Assembly (NCBI GenBank): GCA_017654735.1
Contig: JADPYG010000088.1
Location: 4,712,001 to 4,776,000, forward strand
Source: Vishniacozyma victoriae
Taxonomy: Eukaryota; Basidiomycota; Tremellomycetes; Tremellales; Bulleribasidiaceae
Length of the DNA: 64,000 bases
Reading direction: 5' to 3'
Part shown: piece after piece, positions 3,124 to 46,550 of the stretch
Layout: each line of letters opens with the position of its first letter
Numbering within the stretch: position 1 is the stretch's first letter
Notes under the pieces: model-generated
What the model saw: only the letters and a program-made list of their open reading frames with translations
Told to the model about the DNA's origin: nothing
Databases searched by the model: none
Program-made: the position numbers and the translations under genes

Positions 3124-3233
3124 AGCAAACCCAGGATACTGATCCGTCCATCCGCAATCTCCCAAAGACGCCATCTCTCCAACTCACTCCAAGCGCCAAC
3201 CAACCACCTACATAACCACCTCAACTTCAAACA

Positions 3234-3689
3234 ATGTTCCGATCTATCCTCACCGTCCTCACCTTAGCCTCTATGGCTATCGCTACAAGACAGGCAGGCT
3301 ACTGCTACGAAGACAACTGCTACCGAGCCGTCCAGCGAAAATGGCAAGGTATGGATGTCTACTCTCAACACCTCCGAGATTGTACCACCAACCTCGCTTG
3401 CGCTTCCACTCCTGCCGCCTTCGTTGCGACCGTCACCGAGGTAGTCACCACCGGTACCTCTACCGTCACCCTTAGCAGGGCCACCAACGCCCCATCGCCC
3501 GTCGACGCTGTTGTTACTTGCGGTACAAACCTTCCAGACTACCTCACCCAACAGTGCGATGGCCAATTTACTAGCTACTCCAGTGCCTGCAGCTGCGCCT
3601 CAATTACCGCTTCCACCTCGGTCGCTGCTACCCCCACCATTTTCGCTACCGTTACCAACACCGTCCCCGCCTCGATCGTCTACGTCTAA
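3234..3689 (+). CDS. Small secreted cysteine-containing protein
   Basis: A single uninterrupted frame of 151 residues. It starts with a classic signal peptide (charged start, hydrophobic core about residues 4-17, small residues before a likely cut near 18-20). The mature part has an EDNCYRAVQ motif with paired cysteines (GYCYEDNCYR), further cysteines spaced like an eight-cysteine secreted fungal domain, an SSACSCAS block, and Ser/Thr-rich linkers that would be O-glycosylated. Motifs of the form DNC.RAV plus YSSACSC recur in many uncharacterised secreted fungal proteins; the function is unknown. It lacks introns, unlike nearly all its neighbours. The next gene also encodes a secreted protein. 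Extracellular location is well supported; any effector or wall role is guesswork. Confidence 0.8.
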   Translation: MFRSILTVLTLASMAIATRQAGYCYEDNCYRAVQRKWQGMDVYSQHLRDCTTNLACASTPAAFVATVTEVVTTGTSTVTLSRATNAPSPVDAVVTCGTNLPDYLTQQCDGQFTSYSSACSCASITASTSVAATPTIFATVTNTVPASIVYV

Positions 3690-3819
3690 GCGTGACATCT
3701 ATTTGATATCAAGCAGCACAATGAGAATATGGGTCGGCATTCGGATCTTTGGGTGTGAGGCCTTTGAATTTTGGGATACGTGAGGTAATTGAATCTAGGA
3801 TCTGGGATTTGGGATCTGG

Positions 3820-3918
3820 GTATATAGGCTATTTCTTTCGCTATGTAAATCTAGGCGTGCCATCCTTGCATGCTTCAATTCCTCCGGTAATAGTTCGGTG
3901 CCTCTTCGGAACCTTCTC
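3820..3918. repeat. Diverged duplicated segment B, copy 2
   Basis: Direct copy of 2276-2371 (see that entry). It begins at a TATATAGGC element at 3821, 262 bases upstream of the GPI-protein start codon, so this copy may act as promoter sequence. Confidence 0.5.
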
Positions 3919-4082
3919 GCACTGCAAGACTGACCCATGAGGCACAACACTGCTTCCAATCCGAGCGCGGCGCCCCCGCTCATCTTTACCGGAACTCCCC
4001 CTATGTCGTGCAGGAATTATAAGCAGGCACTCAGCAGTCACTCCTGTCGTTCTCCCCTCTCACCGACATAACATACTGCACC

Positions 4083-4983
4083 ATGATATCACTTTCACTT
4101 TTTCTTGTATTCGCTGGCTTCTCGACACGCCTTGCTCTTGCTCAAGAGTCCAACTCGACTGGGTCTGGGATCTACGGAGGTAGCGATCTTCCAGCAGGGG
4201 AATGGTTTGGGGTCACGCCATTTATATGTTCTGAAGGATGCTATACGCCGTCAGCTGTTTACTAGTGAATTGCATTCTAGACAAGATCGTCATTGCCAAG
4301 CGCTAACGGCTCAGTTTCTGCTTCCTTAATACGACCCTTTGGGATGGCCGTCAAGCCGACCAGAACGAGTGCAACGATTATTTGTGCCAACAAGAGAATT
4401 ACGACCAATTGGCCGCATGTCTCAACTGCATTGTAGCCAACGGAAACGAACGGTCGTCGAGTATGGCAGCTACCGACGATTCCCTTGGGTCCAATATCGA
4501 ACCGGTCGGAGGGTACATCAATCTGGAAAAGGCCAACGGCTGGCTCGCGAATGTGACCGAAAGGTGCCAAAGTGCTGGATCTGCTATCAATGAAGGCGTT
4601 ACGACTACTGTCACAGCTTCTCCTACCACCACGTAAGCACAGGCACCGGTCTGGGCATTCCAAGCCTGGCTGACCGTTTCAGGGGTCCATATTACACTTC
4701 ATGGTCAAGTGGCCAGTCGAGGGGTTTCGCAACATGGACTGGTCTTACCGAATACGCTGATCAATTTTTTCCCACCGTAACCCCTGTTTTCGGCGCGGCC
4801 GAGACCGATTCCAGCGGATCGACCATGAATGCGTCCAGTGGTATGTCCACCTCGTCCGGGCCGTCTAGTGCAGCAAGCGCCTCGGAACAAGCGACATCTG
4901 CTCCAAACTCGGGAACAATCCAGGCCAGTTCGAGTGGGATGTTATGGATGATTTCATTTCTCGGTCTCGTTGGGCTACTGTAA
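4083..4983 (+). CDS. Putative GPI-anchored cell-surface protein
   Basis: Three exons, 4083-4264, 4315-4632 and 4683-4983, separated by two 50-bp introns with GCTAAC and GCTGAC branch points. Joined in frame they give 266 residues. There is an N-terminal signal peptide (about residues 1-20, ending ALAQ), then a cysteine-bearing domain (FICSEGC, NECNDYLC, AACLNCIV, and a later ERCQ) and several N-glycosylation sites. A long Ser/Thr/Ala-rich stalk follows, and a hydrophobic C-terminus (MLWMISFLGLVGLL) without a charged tail: the usual layout of a GPI-anchored wall protein. The protein family is not recognised. The gene is convergent with the regulator gene ending at 5105. Confidence 0.8.
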
Positions 4984-5104
4984 GCTGTGAACGTTTGTAT
5001 CAAGCAGTGTAATTGAGGAATCTGTATTATAGATAATGAAGTCAAGTTAATTAAGCGAGCAAGCAAGTAAATGCATTCCCTTGGATTTGAGTCCAAGTAG
5101 CAAG

Positions 5105-7866
5105 CTATACTATTTGGGTCCCTTTGGGATAGACCACACTAAATCGGCTATCCGTGGGAGAGTGCATCGTCCCAGAGAAGCTCAATCCCATGACTATCAT
5201 CAGCTCCATTACAAGAGATGACTCACTATCACTATTTTGCTTAGAGGAGGCATTGGCGATCCACTCAGATACCCTATTCGGTACACTCAGATCCTCTCCT
5301 TCTCCCACTAGGCTGATTTGAGCTACTCCCTCCCCCTTTTGAACGAGAACACTCCGAATGTACCGTACTCCGCCCCAGTATGACTCTAGAACTTCTAGAA
5401 CGTCGACTACTTTTTGGAAGTTTACTCGAGCGATTTTGGCCATGTGTAGTCTGCCTGTTTGGGCTGGATCTGAGGTGTTGTCGACCGGTGTTCCGGTTGG
5501 CAGAGTCTGGGATACTGATGAATTAGCTGAATTCGCCCGGTGGAGCTGTTCTGCTTACAGAATGTACGGCCTGCGGTATAAAGGGGATAGTTGACCCAGG
5601 GCTGAGTGATTGCTTTAGGGTCGATCTACAGGTCAGCTACTGATCGCGAAAAATGTCAAACAGCTGTACCAATTCAGCAAAGACGACAATGTCCAGTATC
5701 GTCTTCGCAGAACTTGCGGAAATCTCCTTGCTTGCTGGTGCTTGACTGTCTGCTTCCAGAGAGGGAAGGTCCGAGTAGATAATGGTGGGCTGGTAGGCGA
5801 GGATAATGAGACTGCTTGGTCAGTGCGACACCCATTCAGCACAGCGAGAATACTGACGTGTGGAACCATAGCTGAGAGTCCATCAGCATCATCCCGGATT
5901 GCTGGATTAAAGGAGACTCACGTGAATCAGGACAAATGCACCACCTTGTGAGATGGCAGCATAATTACGGAAAGTCGATGTTTCGAATCTCAGTTCAGCC
6001 GGTAATGAGCTATTGAACTCGTTCAGATCGCTCTGAGCCTTTTCCAGCAGATCCGCAGCATTGATCACGTCAGGGCGAACCAGGACTTGAGTAACTTGAT
6101 ACGCAATAGCGAAGATTTTGATCAGGTGATGGAATGGGTCGGGAAGCCCAGAACTGGCCAGTGGTGGGAAATGTGGAATGTCGGTCGATGATGAGGGGGT
6201 AGGATACATCCCCGAGCGACCAGCTATATGTGTCAGTATGTAGTTGGATTCTTGAGGAACTACTCACTACCAATAGTTAGTATAGCATCTTGGATCAAGA
6301 GTGAGCCAGCTATACGAGGCCGAGGCGATTGATGGCCGAGTGGACTTTGAGCGGGATCATAACAGACGGAATCGAGACCTTCGATGTCAGCTCTGGCCCC
6401 TTCATGCTTATGGATTGACTCACCCAGATCTTGTCCCATACGAAGACTCATACCCGAGTACCTGACGAATCAGCTTTCATTCTTTCAATTTGGGGGATCA
6501 GCCTGCTCACATCCATAGACCCTGGTTGTCAGCTGTCGGTTCAACGGACATGGAACCAGCTTACACTATCTCTGTCCTGTCCAAACTCGTACCAGCTGAT
6601 CATCAAGAGAGTCTGTACCATATCCCCATCCGAAATAGCTAATCGTTGAGAAACCTGTTCCTTCGCCTTTGATGCCCAAGTATGAGAAGCAGTATTCGAC
6701 TCGTCCGTCGCTTGAACACCAGTACGTCTAGATCCAGAGTAGATGGGCGAGTAGCGAGCAGCAAGAGCGCAGATGATGTTGATCAGATGAGGTGGATAGG
6801 AAGTGTATTGATGAATGGGAGGTGGTTGTAGTGGGAAGAAATAGGAGAAGTGGAGTTGGAATAGGGGTAAGAGGTGATTAACCGCTTCGACAGATGGGTA
6901 TTCGCCTGCCGCGTCCATGACTGGTGTTGGTAAGGCTGATAGGGCGAAATGCCGATGTGTTGGTGAGGGTGGTGCAGAAACATCTGCGATGACTTGGCGA
7001 TATCCTGGTGCGATGGCTGTAGGTCCGCTGCTGGGTCAGTTTCAACACCTTGTAGTCTCCGCCCGACCTACAAGAATCTATTGATCAGCTCGCTACTTCG
7101 TACACGAGAAGCACCCGAAGACTTACCTAAAGTATGGTACCCTGAACTTCGCCTGGCTCCGACGCTTGGCTAGGGGCTCTCCCTTGATGTCCGTATCTCC
7201 TTCCATCCGGGCTGATCCAGCTGATCCCATATCCACTTGTCCTGCTTGCATCCCATTCGATGTCTGCGGCGCCAGTGACTGCAGTGGAAGCGGAACTTCA
7301 TCTCCGAAATCATAAGCCAAGAAGCTTTCCAGCCATGCGTTGTCGACAGGAGTTCCATCATATCCGTTCTGCGTATGTAGAGGAAGCGAGTCCGCCGTAA
7401 AGTCCAATATCGGGAATTGATTATTGTTGACATAGGAGTTCGAGTCGGAGGGAAGTGCTGGTGTCGCGTAATGATGCGGTGCAGGTGTCCCAAGTTCGTG
7501 GATAGAACTTTGCCGTCTCTTCGAGGTACTTGCTCCAGTTTTGTCTGCCTCGGATTTCCCCTTTCTTTTCCGGGAGATGTGTAGTGGGTAATCACATTCC
7601 TGATTGTTCTTTGCGCACGTCTTGCATATAGGCCGATCACCGGAACATTTGATCTTTCTGGACCGGCAGTTGGAGCACGCTCCCACTCTTGCAGATTCCG
7701 AGCCGTTGTCGGTGGTAATTGTGGTAGTCACTACCGAAGACTTCTTACGTGCCTGTGCCGTAGTCGATGGACCAGGACCAGCTTGACTCGTGGTATCGTC
7801 GTCAATCTGGCTTAAGATGGGGTCGTATGGTAGCATCACCAGATCTTGTCGTACCCGTATATTCAA
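5105..7866 (-). CDS. Zn2Cys6 fungal transcription factor (regulator 1)
   Basis: Minus-strand multi-exon gene. The first exon (from 7866) carries a binuclear zinc cluster near residues 60-90, with the C-x2-C-x6-C pattern in ACSNCRSRKIKCSG followed by CKTCAKNNQECDYP. Acidic and Ser-rich sequence follows. Later exons encode the fungal-specific transcription factor domain: AVNHLLPLFQLHFSYFFP, then a conserved region reading RDSGLWMYSGMSLRMGQDLG when two introns near 6450-6560 are removed. The last exon ends at 5105 with an AKIARVNFQKVVDVLEVLESYW helix. Expected size is about 770 residues. The start at 7866 is the first Met in the zinc-cluster exon; a Met ten codons later is an alternative. It is divergent from the dehydrogenase at 8276 and may control it. 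Target and inducer are unknown. Confidence 0.85.
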
Positions 7867-34259: not shown

Positions 34260-36595
34260 CTACTCCTCGTTATACATATCCAATGCTCTCCACTTTGCTC
34301 TCAACTGTTCAGCGGTCGGCCTCGACTCTTTATTCGGTAATACCATATCCCTCAAAGTCGTCCAGATTGCCTGATCAACCCGGTCTTGGCCATCTAGGAA
34401 GAACATCGCAGGCGTTCCATCAGAATAAGGTTGTCCTGTCGGTTCGCGATTATCGTACATTTCCTCTGGTTGCGATTCGATAGGAGATGGAGTTGAAATA
34501 TCGACTTCGAGTGTTGATCTCGAGTTTGGGTATGTTGGACTGATTGGGCTTATGATTGGTGGATCATCCGCTAGGAGGATCGAGATGGGATCGGTACCAC
34601 CACTACGTGGATTCGAGATCCATTTCCCCCATAATCGAACTGCTGCTGGGGATTCTTCATGCCCCACATCCTCCGAGGCGCGTAATGATTCGGTCGATCC
34701 CATCCTACCCAACCTCGGTCTTTCTACGATTCCTCTCTGATTCCCTTTCGGTACTCTCAAACTCCCCGCTCGCCTTACACCACCACCATAATCTGTCCTC
34801 CAAGCTGAAGGGTAAGGGCTGGGGGCAATATCAACTTCCCTCTCTTGTCCTATCCTACCCAATCTTTCCCTTTCTTCGTATGGCCATAAATCACCTTTAC
34901 GGACATGATGCATCATCTCGATAGTCCGGCATCCGCGATACGGTTCTCTTCCTGTTAGGCATTGATATAGTGTAGCGCCCAGGGAAAAGATATCGACTGG
35001 AAAAGAAAAGGTGGATTCGGGATCGACTAGTTCGGGAGGGGAAAATGGGAGTGTACCCAGCCCAACACCGTCGGTGGGTGGGTGAGAAGGATGAATGAGG
35101 AGTGAAGACCCAAAGTCCGATAGACGAATATCGAGGTTTGCAGTCAGCTACTCGTCAGCTAACGTCGAATTTGAAGGGGGAGATAGCGTACAAGTAGATT
35201 ACCAGCTTTGATATCCGCATGTACGATCCCCTTTCCATGAACCCAACTTAAAGCATCCGTAGTCTGAACAGCCCATCTATTCCAAATCTTTTTGCCCACT
35301 AATCCAGGACTAGTCCTCAAGAACCGATCCATCGTTCCTAGCGGTGCATGTTCGAGAATGAGTACCAATCTCGATAAAGCGGGTGCAGTCTCTATTTCAG
35401 ATTTAGCTGCCTTGGCGAGGGAAGGTAAAGAGGGATGAGAGTTGAGTGTAGAGATGTTTTGTATTTCGTCATTCTTTCTAGATGGAATTTGGTTCTGATG
35501 TAGACGATTCATCATTGTTGAACTTCTTTGTCGGACTAGCGTCCCCCGAGATCCCTCTTGAACTGCATCGGATACTGATCGACCGTGCCCTGCTGTCGTT
35601 CGAGGTGGGATATCTTCTTTGACTGCGACGAGCTTGACGACGTATACGCTACCATTTCGGTTGGATGGAGTGCCAGGTTCACGTCTTGATCCGTCCCTCA
35701 ATGGGCTCACTGCTCTCGTCCTCCTCGAGTGATATCCTCCGCCGCCCATCAGGGATGGTAATCCGTCGATTGGCGAAGTGACGGTAGCTGCCAGCCTATT
35801 CAGGAAGAAAGCCTCCCTCAAACCCATTGTCTGACTTTGTCGATCAGGTGCCATCCGCTTCGCAGCGCATAATCTCCAAGATCCACCAACGAATCCATCC
35901 CCTTCTTCATTTACTTCCATCTCCTCCTCTCCATCACCCTGCTTCGGTGTCGATTCGGTCACTCGGACGCTTGGACCATGAGGGAGATACGGATTCCTAG
36001 ATCTCCCCTTGCCCTTGACGTCCTTCTTGTAACTTGCTAGATAGACTGTTGCATATCTCCCCTCACCTAGGAGGTACATTGACCTCTGTGTCAATCTGAG
36101 TGAAATATCATCCGAACAAGGTGGTCTCGGGGGATTCCAATCAGCTATAGCGGGTAGCGAGGGGGATTGATGGAGTGGTGATAGAGGTTCCGTATCGATT
36201 GGGCGGGGTGTAGGAGGCTTACTAGTAATGTAATTACTAGAACCCGTATCGAGTGGTAGAGGTGGTGGGCGGTTTCTCAAACTTGAAGAACGACCTAAGT
36301 TCGATGGCGGGATTGGAAGTTCGGTAGGTTTATCGAAAAACGATGAAGTTCTAGATGCCTGTGGACTGGGAACGGAAGGGGTAACAGGCATTGATATCGA
36401 AGACGGAAAACCGATATCGATATCCTGTCGTAATCGAGGTAAAGTAGATGATGAGACGGGTATACGCGGTGAAGGCGGTAAAGGAGGAGGCGGTAGAGCT
36501 AATGGTCTAGGAGGTCTAACCTCAGTTGCCCAAGAGGTATTGAACAAATCATTACGCGATGAAGTAGAGTCGGAACGTGGTTTAGTTGTTGTCAT
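34260..36595 (-). CDS. Protein kinase, non-RD, with long disordered N-terminus
   Basis: Minus-strand gene from MTTTKPRSDS (36595). About 165 disordered Pro/Ser-rich residues precede a kinase domain. The glycine loop is LGEGRYATVYLAS; the ATP-binding Lys sits in LCAAKRMAPD only after a ~50-residue acidic insert. LVLILEHAPLGTMDRFL is the hinge region. The catalytic loop reads VHADIKAGNLL (Ala instead of the usual Arg), DFG is in IRLSDFGSS, the P+1 region is GTLPFSPPELVD, and DIFSLGATLYQCLTG follows. Large inserts also separate the N-lobe strands. The end, with RPTAEQLRAKWRAL, closes the C-lobe. All catalytic residues are present, so it should be active, but the subfamily is not recognised. Confidence 0.85.
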
Positions 36596-36961
36596 CTTTG
36601 TTTGTGTAGGTGTGGTATGGTTTGTATTCGGTATAGGAGCATTATTGGGACATGTATCGATTATGACAAGGACAGTGACAGGATATATAATCTAGAGGGG
36701 ACAGTTTGATGATAGTAATGAGTCGGATTATAGATATGATAACAGAAAACAAAGAAGCAACAAAGGTACGAATACCAAAATAGTGACTAACCACTTTTGG
36801 AACATTCACTACTTCACCTATCAATCATCCATCTTTTTATGTTTCAGCAACGAGTAGCATCAACAGCAGCGACAGCTGACGAATTAATCGATAAATCATC
36901 TTTATACATTGACTACGCAGCTTGAGATATCCATGCCTACAAGAGCGTGCGGAGTGAACGT
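36596..36961. other. Intergenic gap, AT-rich
   Basis: 366 bases between the kinase start and the end of the pseudogene-like paralog. AT-rich, no gene seen. Confidence 0.6.
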
Positions 36962-37952
36962 CTAAACAAGCTCCAAGACGCTACATTCGCACACCCTCAA
37001 CCTCTCCTTATCATACTGTCTCGAAGGAGGCTGAACCACATCTCGCCAATCGATCCCGACCCTTCTCTTAAAAATCACATCCCAATCTCCCATATCGCCA
37101 AGTAAGACTCGTTGAAAGAGCATCAACACTCTAGTAAGAACAGGTAATGCATCCTGGCTGATTTCGAGTTTCACAATGTCCCCGTGGACGGTTTGGGGGA
37201 GGAAAGTGAGGGCGATATACTCGTATCCTCGGCATAATTGGATACAGTGACTACGATCAGCCCAATTTTTTGAATTGACGAGAAGACGAACAGGATGAAT
37301 GGAGTCCGTACGGCTGGAGACTGATGTTCAGCAGAACTCTCTGTATGCAGATATTTACCAAGCCTAAGTAACTCAGTGTGGATTCAAGATACCTCCCAAT
37401 ATCCTGACTAGCTTGGACAGCGAGATTCCGTTGATCGGGACAAAGCCTGTACGTGGGGGAGAAGATCTCGTGGTCATTGTTTGACCCGGTACTAATATTC
37501 CTCGTCATCAGATACACAATCACACCGGTCTCAACAAGTTGACGTACTCGGCTGAACATTCAATCAAGCAACAATTCATCACGGGACAACCACTCACCTT
37601 CTCAGAAGAGATAAGGCACCTCAACCTCCCGGTGCTCCCACGCCCCATGGAATGGAACTCGCGTTAAATCCCAATCAATAATCTGCTGCGGATCCTCTTT
37701 CTTTCTCACATCAGATGAATGTTGGGGTGGCCACATTGCCTTCATTACTACCACATATATGAGCGGCTGTTCTTTGGTGGACTTACAGTTGGGTGGAAGG
37801 TGGTAGATCATCCTGACATTCACCTGAGTAGCATTTTGCTTACTCTCTTCACTGGGGTTCAAGCTGATGAATGATTGTATTCGACGTCGTGGTACGTTTG
37901 AGTCCATTCTAGTAACGCGGTGGCCGACTTTATTGATTGGTGCAATAGACAT
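36962..37952 (-). pseudogene. Truncated paralog with Trp-to-stop change (array copy 1)
   Basis: This minus-strand locus matches only the C-terminal module of the gene at 38156-40187. Aligned landmarks are VPYLF (paralog VSYLFWEG), LCPDQRNLAVQASQDIGRYL (paralog LSPNQSNNIVLPSPDVSMYL), AVRTPFI (paralog EARTSFI), EYIALTFLPQ (paralog PYIALTFLSQ) and LTRVLMLFQRV (paralog VTRVFMLFQKV). Where the paralog has TTC TGG GAA G before an intron donor, this copy has TTC TGA GAA G before GTGAGT: an in-frame stop at 37602-37604. Downstream exons otherwise stay alignable, and splice sites persist. The N-terminal and ubiquitin-like modules are absent; upstream lies only the neighbour's 3' flank. It is probably a 5'-truncated tandem duplicate that has lost function; stop readthrough or a short product remain possible. 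Confidence 0.75.
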
Positions 37953-38155
37953 CGAGTGGTGGATGTTGAGTTAATGGGATGACAGATTACCCCGCCCAAC
38001 ACGCCCAGAAGAAATACGAGATTGGCAATCTTAATCAATCACACACCAAGATCTTCGGGCTTGACGTCAAACCTCGCCCCAATCATTCTCCAAGGGTGGT
38101 GAATACAGATGGCGACAATACATGATTACATGAGTACTCAAATCATACTGGCAAC

Positions 38156-40187
38156 TCAAATGATTTCCATTCCTCCCCATTCAAGTACCCTGAATAAATT
38201 CTGATCTTCCTGTCGGTCCTTACTCTCAACCCCTACAATAGCTCGCCAGAATTCTACATCATCTTCCGCCCTCTTTGCTGCTTCTGCCCAAAGGTCAAGC
38301 TGATCGACAGCGACTTTTTGGAAAAGCATGAATACACGAGTTACGATATCGGGTCGAGGTGAAATATCGAGTGGGGCAGCTTTACTATACATATACTGGG
38401 ATAGGAAGGTGAGAGCGATATATGGGTGTCGCTGACAACGCGGAAGCCAGTATCTATATAGTCAGTCATCTCTGATACTTGGTCATGAATGGGGGACTTG
38501 CGTGATGAATGATGTTCGAGCTTCGGTATGCTGTTGGATCAGTATGAAGCACTCTTAGGCCGAGGGTATTCACCAGACCCAGGACCTTCAATGCCTTGTC
38601 GAGATACATCGAAACATCTGGAGAAGGTAGGACGATATTATTGGACTGATTAGGCGACAGTCGGGTGCAGCATGGCTCGAAGATTTTGATCTCGCCCTTC
38701 ATCTCATGATTGCGCATCTCCTTGGCGCCACCACCTCGAGTCCTGTCTATTAGTACTGACACCAAGTAAAGTGACTAGGTTCTGACATACTCGGCTAATA
38801 GATCAGCATCCCCATATTCGGCAAATAAGATAGAAGACTAATCACCTTCCCAGAAAAGATACGATACCTCCAGACCGGTTGCTTCATCCGCCATCGTCCC
38901 ATCAATTTCAGCATTCACCGTCCATTTCACTCGTTCACAGTCATTCGCTGTCTGGGCAGAATCGGGCTTGAGAACTGGCGTTGGAGGATGAACAGCTGAG
39001 ATTGCCCCTGCGATCATCAGCGTCAATCGCATGGAATGGACAGGATAGACTTGACATTGTGGACAAAGCGAGAGGGTCACGTCGACCGACATGGGCTGTG
39101 GAGGGTATAGGTAGATGACTGGTTTCCCACCAATCTGCTCCATGATGACATCAACAAAAATCGGCTCTGTCTCGATGTCGGCTGTATCCCCAAATTCCTT
39201 GAGTCCCATTTGATGTACCGTTTGATCCCAAAGCATTATTCCATAAGATGAGCTGAGGATGAGACGGAAACTGCGGTCTGGTACTACCATCGATCGGGCT
39301 ACTACCTCGTATATCTTCCGCCCTTTTGTCGAGGGCTTGACAGAGAACATCAGGGGCCGGTCATGCCAGTTCACGTATACGTTTCTGCGGTCGTTGCTGA
39401 CTTGTTGACCTTGGTTGCGTTCTGGCGAGGGCATGGGTTCGAGCTTTGACACTCTTCTACCTGGGCGGTCCACTTCTGCTCGACTTGAGTCAAAAAGTGA
39501 TCTGATCGAGGGCAAAGGCTCCTCATCGTCGATATGTGACGTACACGTATCGCTTTCAGTCGAACGGTCTTCCATGTCAAGGCAGTTTCGTTGCCTTTTC
39601 TGCGGCTTGATCTGCCTGGTCATAATCTGATCGGCTCGGCGGAACCTGGTGGTTACCTTCCGTCTGATATCGGCTATTGAGACCGAATTCGAAGTATTCA
39701 GGGGTGGTTTCTGCGAAAGACCCCTCAGTTTGGGGGTTTCCAATTCATCCTCCTCCCATTGCTTGCCAATCAGATGTTTCGCTTTCCATACCACACCGTC
39801 CACATCCTCCTCCAGATCCTGCTCTGTAAGGTCCAAGCTGTCACCATCCACATGAATTGACGCAAGTCGAATAGGAGACGTTTGATCGAAAATGTGAACC
39901 TGCCCGTTATGAGAATATGTCGTAGGCCAAGTTTGATGATCTACCGAGTAGGTAGTCGTTACGCCATCCACAACGAGGTTGATGGAAAGCTTGATATCGC
40001 TGAGATCAGGATTGAAAGGTGTGAACCGGTCGATATTGGACTGATTTCAATTAGTTGATTGGCTCGTGAAGGGGGAAATTGGACCTACGATCCATGATTT
40101 GTCGAGCCTGAAGACCAACTTGATATCACCTTCTGGGCTTATGGCTGTTGCTGCCCCTCCACTGGCTCTTTCACCTGATTGAGACAT
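38156..40187 (-). CDS. Unnamed-family protein with ubiquitin-like segment (array copy 2, full length)
   Basis: Starts MSQSGERASG at 40187; an intron near 40029-40085 leads to the long second exon. Three regions are visible. The N-terminal module (residues about 18-110) begins GDIKLVFRLDKSWI. After a charged linker, about 252-337, comes a beta-grasp-like stretch from NVYVNWHDRPLMFSVKPS through IMLWDQTVHQMG to FVDVIMEQIGG. The C-terminal module starts GGKPVIYLYPPQPMSVDV and runs through VKWTVNAEIDGTM to LEVSYLFWEG. The tail exons then give VLGLHTEARTSFITYWLP (across a GC-AG intron) and TRVFMLFQKV to FRVLEWGGMEII. I have the impression that similar IYLYPP/YLFWE proteins occur in other basidiomycetes, but I know no function for them. 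No signal peptide or membrane segment. This is the complete member of a three-copy array. Confidence 0.8.
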
Positions 40188-40388
40188 TGAGTGGTTGGCA
40201 GTAGGTGGTGAGCGATGGTAAGAGCTGTCACGACTGCAGCGATCTGAGTGAGATAGATGAGAGACTTGTTCCAGACCTTCCCGCATGTGTAAACACACAC
40301 ATACAGGTCAACAGGGATTCCGATGAAACAGGACATGTCCCCCTTGAACAGCTTGGCATATGTCATAGGATGCAAAGTATCCATGGCA

Positions 40389-42686
40389 TCAAGTATGCAT
40401 AACTGCACTATATGTAAGCTCCACCTCGATCAAGGATGACCGTGACGTCCCAGGCGCCAGCAAGCTCCAAAGTCCTATCTGCTGAACCGTCCAACTCGGT
40501 AGCCAAAGCTTTCCGTCAAGATAAAGACCAACATTCGTAGCTTGAGAGCCATACACCCCTTCCAGCCATCCTCTATTCTTGAAGACTTGTGATATAAGTC
40601 CAGCCCGAGTTTCCGCCGTAACACTAAATCGCAGGTCATGTGATCGGAATCCACGTTTGATCTTGAGCCATCGATGTTCAGCGCCATTATTGTCGAGTAC
40701 GGTCTGAAATTGGGATAGTTCCAGTGCAGAGTACTCTTGGTTTCGTGATAATGTTGAGGGTCTGGGAGGTAAAGACGGGTGTAATGGCGGTCTTGTCGAA
40801 ATGACTGTCGGCGGGTTTGCCTTTTGCGTACGGGCGAGATTGGAGGGATTTGAACTCGTGCGACTCGGCGCCCTGATAATGGACGCGCCTGTGTTAGCTG
40901 GGCGAGAGTGAGCGGGTGCGGGGGTAGAATGCGGGATCAGGCCAGCGGACGGATCAGATTCTTTTGCCCCTTTTCGAAGCACAGTTGCTGAATGTGGGGT
41001 TCGGAGATGTCCTTCCACCGAGTACGTATCTGTAGCCGTATGCGAAGGGGTCACTTCTGCGACGTCGATTGAAGGGACTGACGAGCTGTGCCCATTTCCT
41101 AGGAGCGGGGTCGGCTGGGGCGATTGGGGTTCAGGGTTGGAAGTTGGGGGCGGCTCACTTCTGGAGTTTGGCTTGATTGGAGAGAGTGATGATTCGTCCA
41201 ATGGCCGATTGGCTGGGATAATCGATGTCATTGATTCAGTGGATGTTTGGAAAGGAATCCGAGGGGTAATCGGCATAGCATGTGTCCGGGAGCAAAGAGA
41301 TGTCCGATAGGTCAAGGGGTGCGTGAGCTTGAGAAGGAACTGAGTTCGGAGTGGGAAGAGTGATTTTCTTGGTGGCAGCTATTGGCGATATTGTATGGCG
41401 GTCACTTGTCTCGGCAGTCGTTACCTGACTCTGCTGTCTCAGCGCAGACATGGCGACAGGTGATTGACACCTATTCTCATCTGGTGGCTTCCTGTATTCA
41501 GCCGTTTCTACCAGCAGTCTACTCGTAGAGTTCTGCGCCTTCTCCAGTGTCTCGGTATCGTCCTTGTCGGCTCCAATACCCGTCGGCTTGGGATCACTCT
41601 GGCTCCGAGGAGGAGAGTAGGGAGATGAGCGATGCGGTATCATGACGACTGGTGTCAGGTTCTTTGTCGGGCGTGAGATGGGGTTAGGCTTCCCATGAAT
41701 CGATGACAACAAAGCGTGTGACAGTGGAGTAATAGGTCTCGCCGATGATGATGAAGCGGACTTGATTGAATTTGTAGACGGAAGTGGAGTAGAAGTAGGG
41801 ATTGTCGATGTCGATATGTTGGCCGTATCGCTCTCGATGACCTTCTGATTCGGGCTTTGCAAGTTGGTAGGGTGGGAGGTGGACTTTGAAAGGTTGTGTG
41901 TTGTTCGTATCGGCGAACTTGCAGATCTTACGGCGTCTTCGACCGACCGCTGACTAAGTGAAGTTGGCGTATGATTCCGTATTGGGTCCGATCCAGATGA
42001 GGTTCGAGCATCGATGATAGTGGCCGGTACCGTCATTTCCTTACGAACGAGTGTAACATACTCTTCCCTTCCAGCTCCCTTTCCGGCTATAGATCCCTCT
42101 CTTGATATCTGGGCAGAGTCAACCCGCAGCATTGGTTTGATGTCGTCACTATTGTCGCGTTCTTTCGGCACCCTGACCATTTCGTCGTCATCGTCGTCGT
42201 CGTCGTCCGATGAGTCGATATCTATAGGACACTCATGCGTTCCTTTACGGCCTTTGGGAGTTACTTTCCTCTTCTTACGAGGCGTAGGCTCTGGCGAGCT
42301 AGCGACGACAGTCGATTTTTGGCGTGTCGATGTTGGTATTGGTGTCGGTGACGGTTCCATGACATTTTCTTCAGGAGACTCTGGATCGATCACATTCTGT
42401 ATAATTTCTGCGAGGTGCATTGACGAGTATCCTCCTGCTTTATCCGGTTTCTCCACGCGACAGACGAGTGTGACATATTGATCATCGTTCTTGGCGGTGA
42501 TGTGGAAGGAATATACGAGTTCATTGATGGTAGGGATGTATTGTCTGATGATCTCCTGCGGTATAAGTTGCGCACATTGCTTGTTTGAACACTTACCAGG
42601 CCAGATTTATCCATCTTGAACACACCTTCGATCTCCTCGTCTACCACCCGGCAATTAGCTAGAGCTTTTGTGAATGTCTTGCTCAT
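40389..42686 (-). CDS. Paralog lacking the C-terminal module (array copy 3)
   Basis: Starts MSKTFTKALA at 42686. The N-terminal module (EEIEGVFKMDKSGL, spliced to EIIRQYIPTINELVYSFHI) aligns with the same region of the central copy. A very long disordered Ser/Thr/Pro-rich linker follows, with a nuclear-localisation-like PRKKRKVTPKGRKG and an acidic SSDDDDDDDDE run. A ubiquitin-like stretch ends the protein (WLKIKRGFRSHDLRFSV to VGLYLDGKLWLPSWTVQQIG, ending IEVELTYSAVMHT). The linker and the last part lie in different frames. An 85-bp intron, 41340-41424, with a CAG/GTAACG donor and AACTCAG acceptor, would join them; otherwise a frameshift must be assumed. The IYLYPP/YLFWE module is missing. 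Function unknown; likely nuclear. Confidence 0.65.
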
Positions 42687-43911: not shown

Positions 43912-46550
43912 ATGCAGAGTGGTGCCGGTACAATATCCCAACCAGGCTTAAATCCGTGGAACGTGAGTCCTTTGATCCCATCCTTCATACTAGCCGTTTC
44001 AAAACCTGCCTTCCGACCGACCAACCCTCTCCCTCGCTCCATGCCTTTGTGCCCTCTTGCCTTTCCTCTCCCTATCTTCCACTCTTCACCCCTCTGCTCT
44101 GGCCCTTGCTCACTCCATTGTAGAATACCCTTCCTACGATGTACTCAAATAATCAACAACAACAACAGCAGCAGCCGCAGCAGCAGCAACAACAGCAACG
44201 GAATACGTCAAACCCACGAGCCTTCCCTCAATCGGATTCACCTATTGTCGGTGGCGAAAGAAGGGATGATCAGGCATATGCTACGGATAATCAGGGAAAT
44301 CATCAATATGGCAACTACCAGCAGCAGCAGCAGCAACAGCAACAGCAGCAGGGATCGTATAGTGCTGTGCCTAATTATGGTCAATACAACTCGCCTATGA
44401 AGTGAGTCTGTTTCACTCTTCCTTCCTTTCCAAGCTAACGTCACCAGTGCCTACAACACCGCGTCGCCTACTGTTGCTGCCGCATCGGGTTCGCGTCGTA
44501 CATCCAATCCTAAAGCTGGAACGACACCACCCGCCATCAACACCCAAGCTGCCTCTGCGAGGTACTATCCTACCCAAGGCTCGACCGATCCTCAATACCC
44601 CTCATCCGCCCCTCCCAACATCACATCACATTCCCAGCATACCCAACATGCTTCGACCCAAACCGGGCAGCCGATGACTGCTCATGCCTACGGTGCTGGC
44701 TATGGATACTACCCTCCAGAGTCCTATCCAGGCTACTACCCCAACCAGACTCCTTCCACATCCCGCCCGAGCGCTGCTCCCCAGTCGAGTACACCAGTCA
44801 CCGCCATGCCCACTACTGCGACCATGGACACTGGACGTTCGGGTAGCAGTGCTTCTTACGACTACAACCAGCCCATGTCGGGTGGCTATCCCTCGGCTCA
44901 GTACCCTCCATATCAATGGCCTCAACAGCAATCTCGGTCAAGCATGCCCCCCGGTCAATCAAGTCAATGGCAGGGCTACCCCATGGCTTCGCAGCCTATG
45001 CCCCATGGTTATCCCAACCATATGCAGCAGTACCCCATGCAGTCATGGCCTGGCTACTATCCTCCCGGAACGCAACCACACCCATCGACCATGGCGCCAA
45101 TTGCCAGCAAAAAGGGTAAAGACAAGGGCAAGGACGAGTACAAGACTGGCAACAAACGATTATCGGAAGCAGCCGACCTCTCGCCTACCGACAAGAAAGG
45201 AAAGAAATTGAAAAAGGACGAGGAAAAGCCGATTCCTAAACCACCACCCAAGTCGCACCTCAAGGCTCCACCTCAGGCTCAGAGCATGTGGCAGTTGTTC
45301 TTCACCGATGAGCTCAACAAGGCGAAAGCAGCTGCTCGAGCGACCTCACCTGGCGGCACTGTCCAGAATGCTAAACTCAATGTCGCCAAGATCGCTCAAG
45401 AAGCCGGTATCGCCTACAACAAACTCAACGACGAACAAAAGGCATACTACGGAACGAAAGTCGCAGAGAGTAAAGCAGAGCATGAAGAGGCCCTAAAGAA
45501 CTGGCACAAGACTTTGACTCCTGAGGATATTCGAAAAGAAAATGTATACAGGGCTCAGATGAGGAAAGAGGGTAAATCGAGAAAAGGGAATCTTAAAGAT
45601 CCTAATGCGCCAAAGAAACCTCTTTCCGCTTATTTCTTGTTTTTGAAGGGTATTAGGGAGAATGACGGTTTACGGGCGGAGGTTTGGGGCAAGGAGACGG
45701 AAACTACCAAGCAGAGTGTACTTGCTGCCGAGCGATGGCGGGGTTTGTCGGATGATGAACGACGAGTAAGTCACCTCCATGTCGAAAGTGTAGTGCTGAC
45801 CGATAGCCATTCTTAAATCAAGCTGAAAACGACAAGCAGACATATGAAACTGCTCGAAAGGTCTATGAAGAGGAAGCTGCCGCTCGAGCCCGAGGCGAGA
45901 TGGTCGACCCTAAAACCGACCCTACTGCTGAAGCCTCTACCGTCGTTCCTCCCATTCCTATCGCTGCGCATACACCAGCGACCCAGACTATGATCGATAT
46001 CAATGATCATGTCCTACCCCCGCCCACTCCAGTCGATGTCACCCAAACTCCCCGAGTTACCGAGACACCGGATTTCGCTCAATTTACAAATGATTCGGAT
46101 GAAGAAAAGAAGCCATTGCCCAGTACCTTCGATACCTCTCTTGACGATTTCCAAGGTTTCACTCCTCTTGAAGATATGGGATTCCCAACTAGCACGGACG
46201 CAAACCAATGGGACGATCTACATAATCTCATGGGAGAACAAGATCAAACTCCGGCTAAATCAGATGTTGATGTGGCTCCTACTATGGAAGAAGCAGTTGC
46301 AGCGACTACCGAATTACCATCTGCTCCTGTTGCTACTACCGAGAATGATATTCAGCAAGTTGCTGCCGAGGCTGAGGGGGCGGTAGGACTTCCGGATGGG
46401 GGAGAGGGATCGGGTGAACCTACCGAGGCAGTCAGTGAGATGCCTCCGGTCGAGACGGAAGGGCAGGCATTCGGGAGTGGAGAGTCGACATTCGGGAATC
46501 AGGAATCGGTCTTGGATGTCCCAGCTTCTCCACCCGTCGAGTTCCAGTGA
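43912..46550 (+). CDS. HMG-box chromatin protein with glutamine tracts
   Basis: Exons 43912-43962, 44124-44401, 44448-45765 and 45807-46550 join to 796 residues. The start at 43912 (MQSGAGTISQPG) is preferred because it splices in frame to the next exon; a Met at 44139 (MYSNNQQ) is the alternative. Glutamine runs sit near residues 26-45 and 80-95, followed by a Gly/Tyr/Pro/Ser-rich low-complexity region and a lysine-rich linker. A diverged HMG-like domain comes next (SMWQLFFTDELN to AEHEEALKNWHK). A canonical HMG box follows (DPNAPKKPLSAYFLFLKGIR to AERWRGLSDDERRPFLNQA), then an acidic Pro-rich tail. HMG boxes bend DNA; the layout suggests a nuclear or mitochondrial DNA-architecture or transcription protein. 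The glutamine runs are mixed CAG/CAA. Confidence 0.87.

Follow-up and report, generated by a model that had tools for sequence, protein, structure and literature searches.

An apparently intact ubiquitin-like fusion gene, a module C relic, and a separate neighbor in a tandem array of Vishniacozyma victoriae

In the basidiomycete Vishniacozyma victoriae, three gene-like units follow one another head to tail, ~0.2 kb apart and all on the minus strand, within a stretch of 64,000 nucleotides (assembly GCA_017654735.1, contig JADPYG010000088.1, positions 4,712,001 to 4,776,000; hereafter the window, whose own numbering is used below). The initial annotation had described the central unit as a gene with an N-terminal region (A), a ubiquitin-like module (B), and a module C, the right unit as a copy keeping A and B, and the left unit as a copy keeping C, which raised the question of whether duplicates had decayed or had been deliberately partitioned into separate partners. 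A tandem array of three at about positions 36962 to 42686 was confirmed, and so was the three-part composition of the central gene (profile-profile comparison for B, five of five hallmark motifs for C). The locus is real, but the apparent complementary loss is no balanced split: an intact fusion gene is accompanied by a relic and by a separate neighbor. In the reading that we hold with moderate confidence, the central gene would be a living member of a large family that was found chiefly among basidiomycetes and joins a ubiquitin/SUMO-like domain directly to C; the left unit would be the dead remnant of a tandem copy; and the right gene would be an old separate neighbor, probably a distant tandem relative, bearing an acidic stretch like a SUMO-interacting motif and a conserved, possibly ubiquitin-like tail. 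The array would turn over by duplication, decay, and perhaps tail exchange, with no planned division of labor.

The central gene and its ubiquitin-like domain

The central gene was modeled with seven exons encoding 581 residues, or 597 if the intron at 39055-39008 is retained, and includes one GC-AG intron (38501-38454). Its reading frame is unbroken and free of stops in this assembly, so that the gene is apparently intact and living, and its module C retains all five hallmark motifs (KPVIYL, YLFWE, YWLP, RVFM, and EWGGME). Among the matches listed for the model, the closest relative shared 96% identity across 63% of the model, five further relatives were 70 to 75% identical, and the remaining ones were mostly ~35 to 50% identical over <70% of the model; the genera of most of these remaining matches we take to be basidiomycetes.

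The relationship of central B to ubiquitin was apparent at the profile level, since hhalign aligned it with the ubiquitin-like part of 49 proteins from mushrooms at an E value of 1.5e-21 and a probability of 99.4%. In a plain comparison with ubiquitin itself, central B scored at chance level (1,452 of 2,000 shuffles reached the score), and Pfam returned no family in it. The domain of a relative matched the Pfam families ubiquitin (E 0.0012) and Rad60-SLD (E 0.01), both below the curated cutoffs, and no domain of the window matched Rad60-SLD at the curated cutoff. The ubiquitin-like segment proposed initially was therefore upheld for the central gene by profile comparison only, not by direct comparison or Pfam. 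Considering the missing Pfam match and the shuffle-level similarity to ubiquitin, central B is, judging from its sequence, a strongly diverged ubiquitin-like member.

The left relic and the right neighbor

DNA alignment of the left unit with central C revealed a structure in common down to the microexon. The middle and last coding stretches matched C at scores reached by 0 of 2,000 shuffles each; the first stretch was at chance (399 of 2,000). The last exon shares 33 of 94 aligned residues with the central gene, and the differences at the three codon positions number 46, 31, and 60. The tryptophan codon of YLFWE has become an in-frame stop, the fourth coding stretch is no longer followed by a splice donor, KPVIYL was not found in the unit, and three further hallmarks are altered (YWLP to HCIQL, RVFM to RVLM, and EWGGME to ECSVLE). 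Thus, the statement that the left unit keeps C stood for homology to the later part of C and failed for the first stretch and the hallmarks, and decay of a duplicate was borne out for this unit. In our reading, this copy was probably constrained for a long time and then died.

The right gene is read from two frames (42606-41239 and 41378-40392) that need joining, and seven relatives (P0188 to P0194) run continuously there; the frame change means either that the gene is broken or that the assembly is in error. Errors of sequencing or assembly might also be invoked for the left stop, which would leave all three genes intact; the window derives from a single assembly, and the continuous frames of the right relatives are consistent with such errors, which may have occurred in the right gene. 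They do not explain the many further changes of the left unit in hallmarks and splice sites, and as an account of the whole array we consider them improbable.

The relatives of the right gene comprised these seven proteins (629 to 685 residues) and one chimeric model (P0016), among at least 7,986 scored candidates. Module C was absent from the right frames of the window and from all six relatives with a complete tail (P0188 to P0190 and P0192 to P0194); P0191 stops short within the tail, and P0016 holds only the start of C, derived from the central gene. Because the complete-tail relatives are also without C, there is no sign that the right gene ever lost it, and its description as the central gene minus C did not hold. 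The suggestion of a deliberate partition, in which the right unit (with A and B) and the left unit (with C) would work jointly as split counterparts to the central protein, draws on position only, the three units being close together on one strand. It meets a left unit with a stop and without nearly all hallmark residues, right relatives without C, a right B only marginally like central B, and a right tail that ends without Gly-Gly, and we regard it as very improbable.

Whether the right gene is related to the central gene at all was less clear-cut. BLASTP found no significant similarity between the two (lowest E 0.11, across 21 residues), and hhalign was weak for both A (E 0.03 at a probability of 1.6%) and B (E 0.01 at 4%). 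The score of right B against central B was reached by 37 of 2,000 shuffles, and these results would fit unrelated genes that became neighbors by chance and share a similar general plan. Against such chance proximity, the score of right A against central A was reached by only 4 of 2,000 shuffles (1 of 2,000 for the first half of A), right and central genes are also neighbors in a relative (P0016), and the first intron lies at a matching aligned place in phase 0 in both genes. Homology is favored because the place and phase of this intron coincide, and the right gene is probably a distant tandem relative of the central gene, chance neighbors being a substantial minority possibility. The view that the right unit keeps A and B thus received marginal support from shuffles and the common first intron, not from BLASTP or hhalign; the modules align between the copies only marginally, which is in part the outcome that the initial annotation had named as speaking against its proposal.

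The tail of the right gene is nearly unchanged in P0188 to P0193, which share 51 to 55 of 56 residues with it over columns 661 to 720 of the alignment, and the linker varies widely. Comparison of the tail with mushroom ubiquitin-like domains gave an hhalign E of 0.077 at low probability, Pfam gave no match, and right B compared plainly with ubiquitin was at chance level (1,387 of 2,000 shuffles). The acidic stretch was assigned by what we take to be the consensus of SUMO-interacting motifs. P0194 is the closest relative in the first part (157 of 166 residues in columns 1 to 180, 294 of 332 in columns 1 to 360), falls to 16 of 50 further on, and then carries another tail domain (7 of 56 in columns 661 to 720) that approaches Rad60-SLD (E 0.00046, 20.4 bits versus a curated cutoff of 23.8). 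Similarly, P0191 agrees with P0189 at 112 of 113 positions in columns 1 to 120 and then at 38 of 52, 15 of 48, and 46 of 57. This tail swap and patchwork suggest segment exchange, with chimeric assembly as a possible source, and to that extent they lend partial support to the notion of a rapidly changing array. In the comparison of P0194 and P0016 with window positions 40392 to 42606, one near relative bears an alternative, SUMO-like tail, a possible allele or segment exchange at the locus.

Table 1. Features of the array in window coordinates
Feature	Position	Strand	Basis
Left unit, degenerate module C relic	36962..37970	-	DNA alignment with central C, shuffles
TGA in frame, replacing the W of the YLFWE hallmark, left unit	37602..37604	- (37604-37602)	Alignment
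Central gene: N-terminal region, linker, ubiquitin/SUMO-like domain (B), module C	38156..40187	-	Splice sites and alignment to relatives
Central exons	40187-40089, 40040-39056, 39007-38846, 38794-38791, 38742-38574, 38530-38502, 38453-38156	-	Gene model
48-base intron, non-consensus donor (read by eye), open if retained	39008..39055	-	16 residues absent from homologues
4-base microexon CCGA of central gene; counterpart in left relic at 37551-37548	38791..38794	-	Gene model and DNA alignment
Central ubiquitin/SUMO-like domain, end EQIGG at 39140-39126	39126..39389	-	hhalign against mushroom ubiquitin-like domains, E 1.5e-21
Central module C, KPVIYLYPP to EWGGMEII; hallmarks KPVIYL, YLFWE, EARTSFITYWLP, TRVFM, EWGGME	38159..39125	-	Alignment A1, motif check, family search
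Right gene: exon 1 42686-42597, exon 2 from 42555; N-terminal region, long linker, conserved tail, without C	40389..42686	-	Gene reading and relatives
PIDIDSSDDDDDDDD, stretch like a SUMO-interacting motif	42184..42228	-	Sequence; PIDID[SA]SDD in 8/8 aligned relatives
Frame change of right gene versus relatives reading on in one frame	41236..41265	-	Alignment
Right conserved tail, ubiquitin-like by pattern only	40392..40718	-	51-55/56 identical to six relatives, columns 661-720; without Pfam match

Immediately downstream of the left unit lies a protein kinase gene (34263-36691), read in two open stretches; past the right gene, a plus-strand reading frame (44401-45813) has HMG-box domains.

The module C family and its Gly-Gly junction

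One search recovered at least 4,935 proteins of the module C family at an E value of ≤0.01, and C is without a Pfam or NCBIfam model. A structure prediction for a mushroom module C reached a predicted local distance difference test (pLDDT) score of 93.7, and its comparison with the PDB gave no clear match; C is a beta-rich domain common to mushrooms and some bacteria. Many of the listed proteins join C to ubiquitin- or SUMO-like domains, and a few bacterial relatives sit on secreted or surface proteins. Because adjacent locus tags appeared among the matches listed (Tulasnella M407DRAFT_18959/18960, Ceratobasidium BDV93DRAFT_544909/544910 and FRC12_020809/020810, Candolleomyces EST38_g13960/13961, and Agrocybe D9613_010306/010307), tandem copies occur elsewhere in the family as well. 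The array itself represents ordinary gene turnover, and it is the family, large, apparently poorly described, and without explanation, that deserves attention.

Members were also seen in other contexts. The V. victoriae genome holds a second, more diverged C-family gene with its own N-terminal part (L010, G000:C6:250000-257500, ~3190-5270, minus strand; 32% identity over query residues 66 to 179). C lies at the end of a serpin from a genome in the family of a Fusobacteriaceae metagenome-assembled genome (L013:1498-3339) and of a plasmid-encoded Ruminococcus albus protein annotated as a leucine-rich-repeat surface protein (L018:1429-3546), and a relative with 33% identity occurs in an unannotated phage record from human fecal samples (MT835506.1:4428-4952).

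In the central gene, C starts at the residue right after a Gly-Gly (EQIGG followed directly by KPVIYL), and Q-x-G-G precedes KPVI in this gene and in each of seven relatives (8 of 8). The junction survey covered 156 copies of C that had 20 or more residues upstream, drawn from 194 proteins after exclusion of 12 copies with a shorter upstream part and representing the best of the matches listed rather than a random sample. Gly-Gly was present in 82 copies, comprising 37 of SUMO type (Q.GG), 37 of ubiquitin type, and 8 others, where the labels follow what we take to be the C-terminal ends of SUMO and ubiquitin. The other 74 copies had a single glycine followed by another residue (27 copies: GD 8, GK 7, GA 6, GE 3, GI 1, GR 1, and GH 1) or were counted as other (47 copies). 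Gly-Gly occurred in 31 of the 50 most ubiquitin-like copies and in 35 of the 77 least ubiquitin-like ones. In 50 chosen mushroom rows, the two glycine columns were 0.88 and 0.80 identical versus a module mean of 0.37, and the sole other column at 0.88 in the ubiquitin-like module was also a glycine. At the sequence level, Gly-Gly is better kept than most of the domain, yet absent in many copies, and the junction may be either a fusion scar or the mark of an undescribed class of ubiquitin-like precursors.

This leads to the possibility that the central gene encodes a precursor from which a protease of the ubiquitin/SUMO system, cutting after Gly-Gly, would free a ubiquitin-like protein and C. 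The exact start of C after Gly-Gly and the conservation of both glycines speak for it, and there are precedents: FUBI-eS30 is cut, with the diglycine required (PMC8354635), and SUMO precursors are processed to expose Gly-Gly (PMC2946365). Several features of the family speak against it. The positions that we take to be equivalent to Arg72 and Arg74 of ubiquitin were only 0.24 and 0.48 identical, and the junction was fairly ordered in the predicted model of the mushroom protein P0090 (mean pLDDT of 91 for residues 181 to 190 and 85 for residues 191 to 200), which would leave little room for a protease. Moreover, since Gly-Gly is absent in 74 of the 156 copies, including 19 of the 50 most ubiquitin-like ones, cutting is not essential in all members. 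We consider cleavage of the central protein a tentative possibility. As a review describes, fusions that have turned resistant to deubiquitinases may become fixed ubiquitin-like domains (PMC11354881); by analogy, the C family could hold both cleavable and fixed states.

Proposed function of the central protein and comparison with known systems

Under the reading favored here, the central protein would most likely stay whole and act as an adaptor, its ubiquitin-like domain docking on proteins of the ubiquitin/SUMO pathways while C would bind a ligand or partner, which is probably also its task in the secreted and surface proteins of bacteria. Several observations weigh against parts of this reading. 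The hydrophobic patch by which ubiquitin docks, at positions that we assigned presumptively, was poorly conserved in the 50 chosen rows (0.18, 0.36, and 0.28), which, with Gly-Gly being well conserved, speaks against a standard docking mode. For the left unit, nonsynonymous (dN) and synonymous (dS) divergence from the central gene was 0.62 and 2.43, respectively (NG86, 94 aligned codons), indicating past constraint on the pair, a ratio that covers both branches, the constrained central one included. In addition, its last exon is still an open frame, and 95-codon open stretches are no rarity in the window (254 of 3,446 sampled, coding ones included). The left unit either died late or has some residual constraint.

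The structure predictions covered mushroom relatives. The mushroom protein P0090, which has all three modules, gave a pLDDT of 88.0 and a predicted template modeling score of 0.67, moderate for the whole, and its modules A and B together matched linear di-ubiquitin and ISG15. Also counting against the favored reading, mushroom module A did not match the central N-terminal region (hhalign E 0.44), and against the right gene it gave an E of 0.01 at a probability of 4.1% over 22 columns. Because the N-terminal region in the window is unlike mushroom A, two ubiquitin-like domains are not claimed for the window.

A broader proposal may be considered, which we rate as doubtful, below even the cleavage of the central protein: basidiomycetes would possess a large undescribed class of ubiquitin- and SUMO-type precursors cut at Gly-Gly into a modifier and a bacterial-type C, lineages without Gly-Gly would have settled on a fixed two-domain protein, and tandem arrays would be the sites where copies, tails, and remnants turn over. 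If the Gly-Gly junction is truly cut, mushrooms may own an unrecognized set of ubiquitin-like modifiers.

Among known systems, ubiquitin-ribosomal fusions and FUBI-eS30 likewise place a ubiquitin-like domain before an unrelated protein at Gly-Gly (PMC8354635 and PMC11354881); they differ in that their tail is ribosomal rather than C, in that Gly-Gly is absent in nearly half of the C copies surveyed, and in that cleavage here is only putative. The SUMO precursor, with a tail after Gly-Gly (PMC2946365), resembles the central gene. SUMO, like the central domain, ends in Q-x-G-G. The right gene, by its acidic stretch, recalls SUMO/Rad60-type proteins, although the domains of the window are without a Pfam Rad60-SLD match. 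Linear di-ubiquitin and ISG15 contain two tandem ubiquitin-like folds, as predicted for the mushroom relative, in which C follows; this likeness belongs to the mushroom relative and not to the window gene. The bacterial secreted or surface proteins (L011, L013, and L018) carry C at or near their C-terminal end, in L011 and L013 with the same hallmarks, but these two have no ubiquitin family by Pfam and no Gly-Gly directly before C. The central gene also resembles basidiomycete proteins named "ubiquitin family protein" or "ubiquitin-like domain-containing protein" (for example, P0090 of Amanita phalloides, P0020 of Hebeloma, and P0007 of Candolleomyces); P0090 differs in that its module A is a second predicted ubiquitin-like domain, unlike the N-terminal region in the window, but in all three, as in the central gene, a ubiquitin-like domain is joined directly to C with Gly-Gly at the junction, and tandem copies occur.
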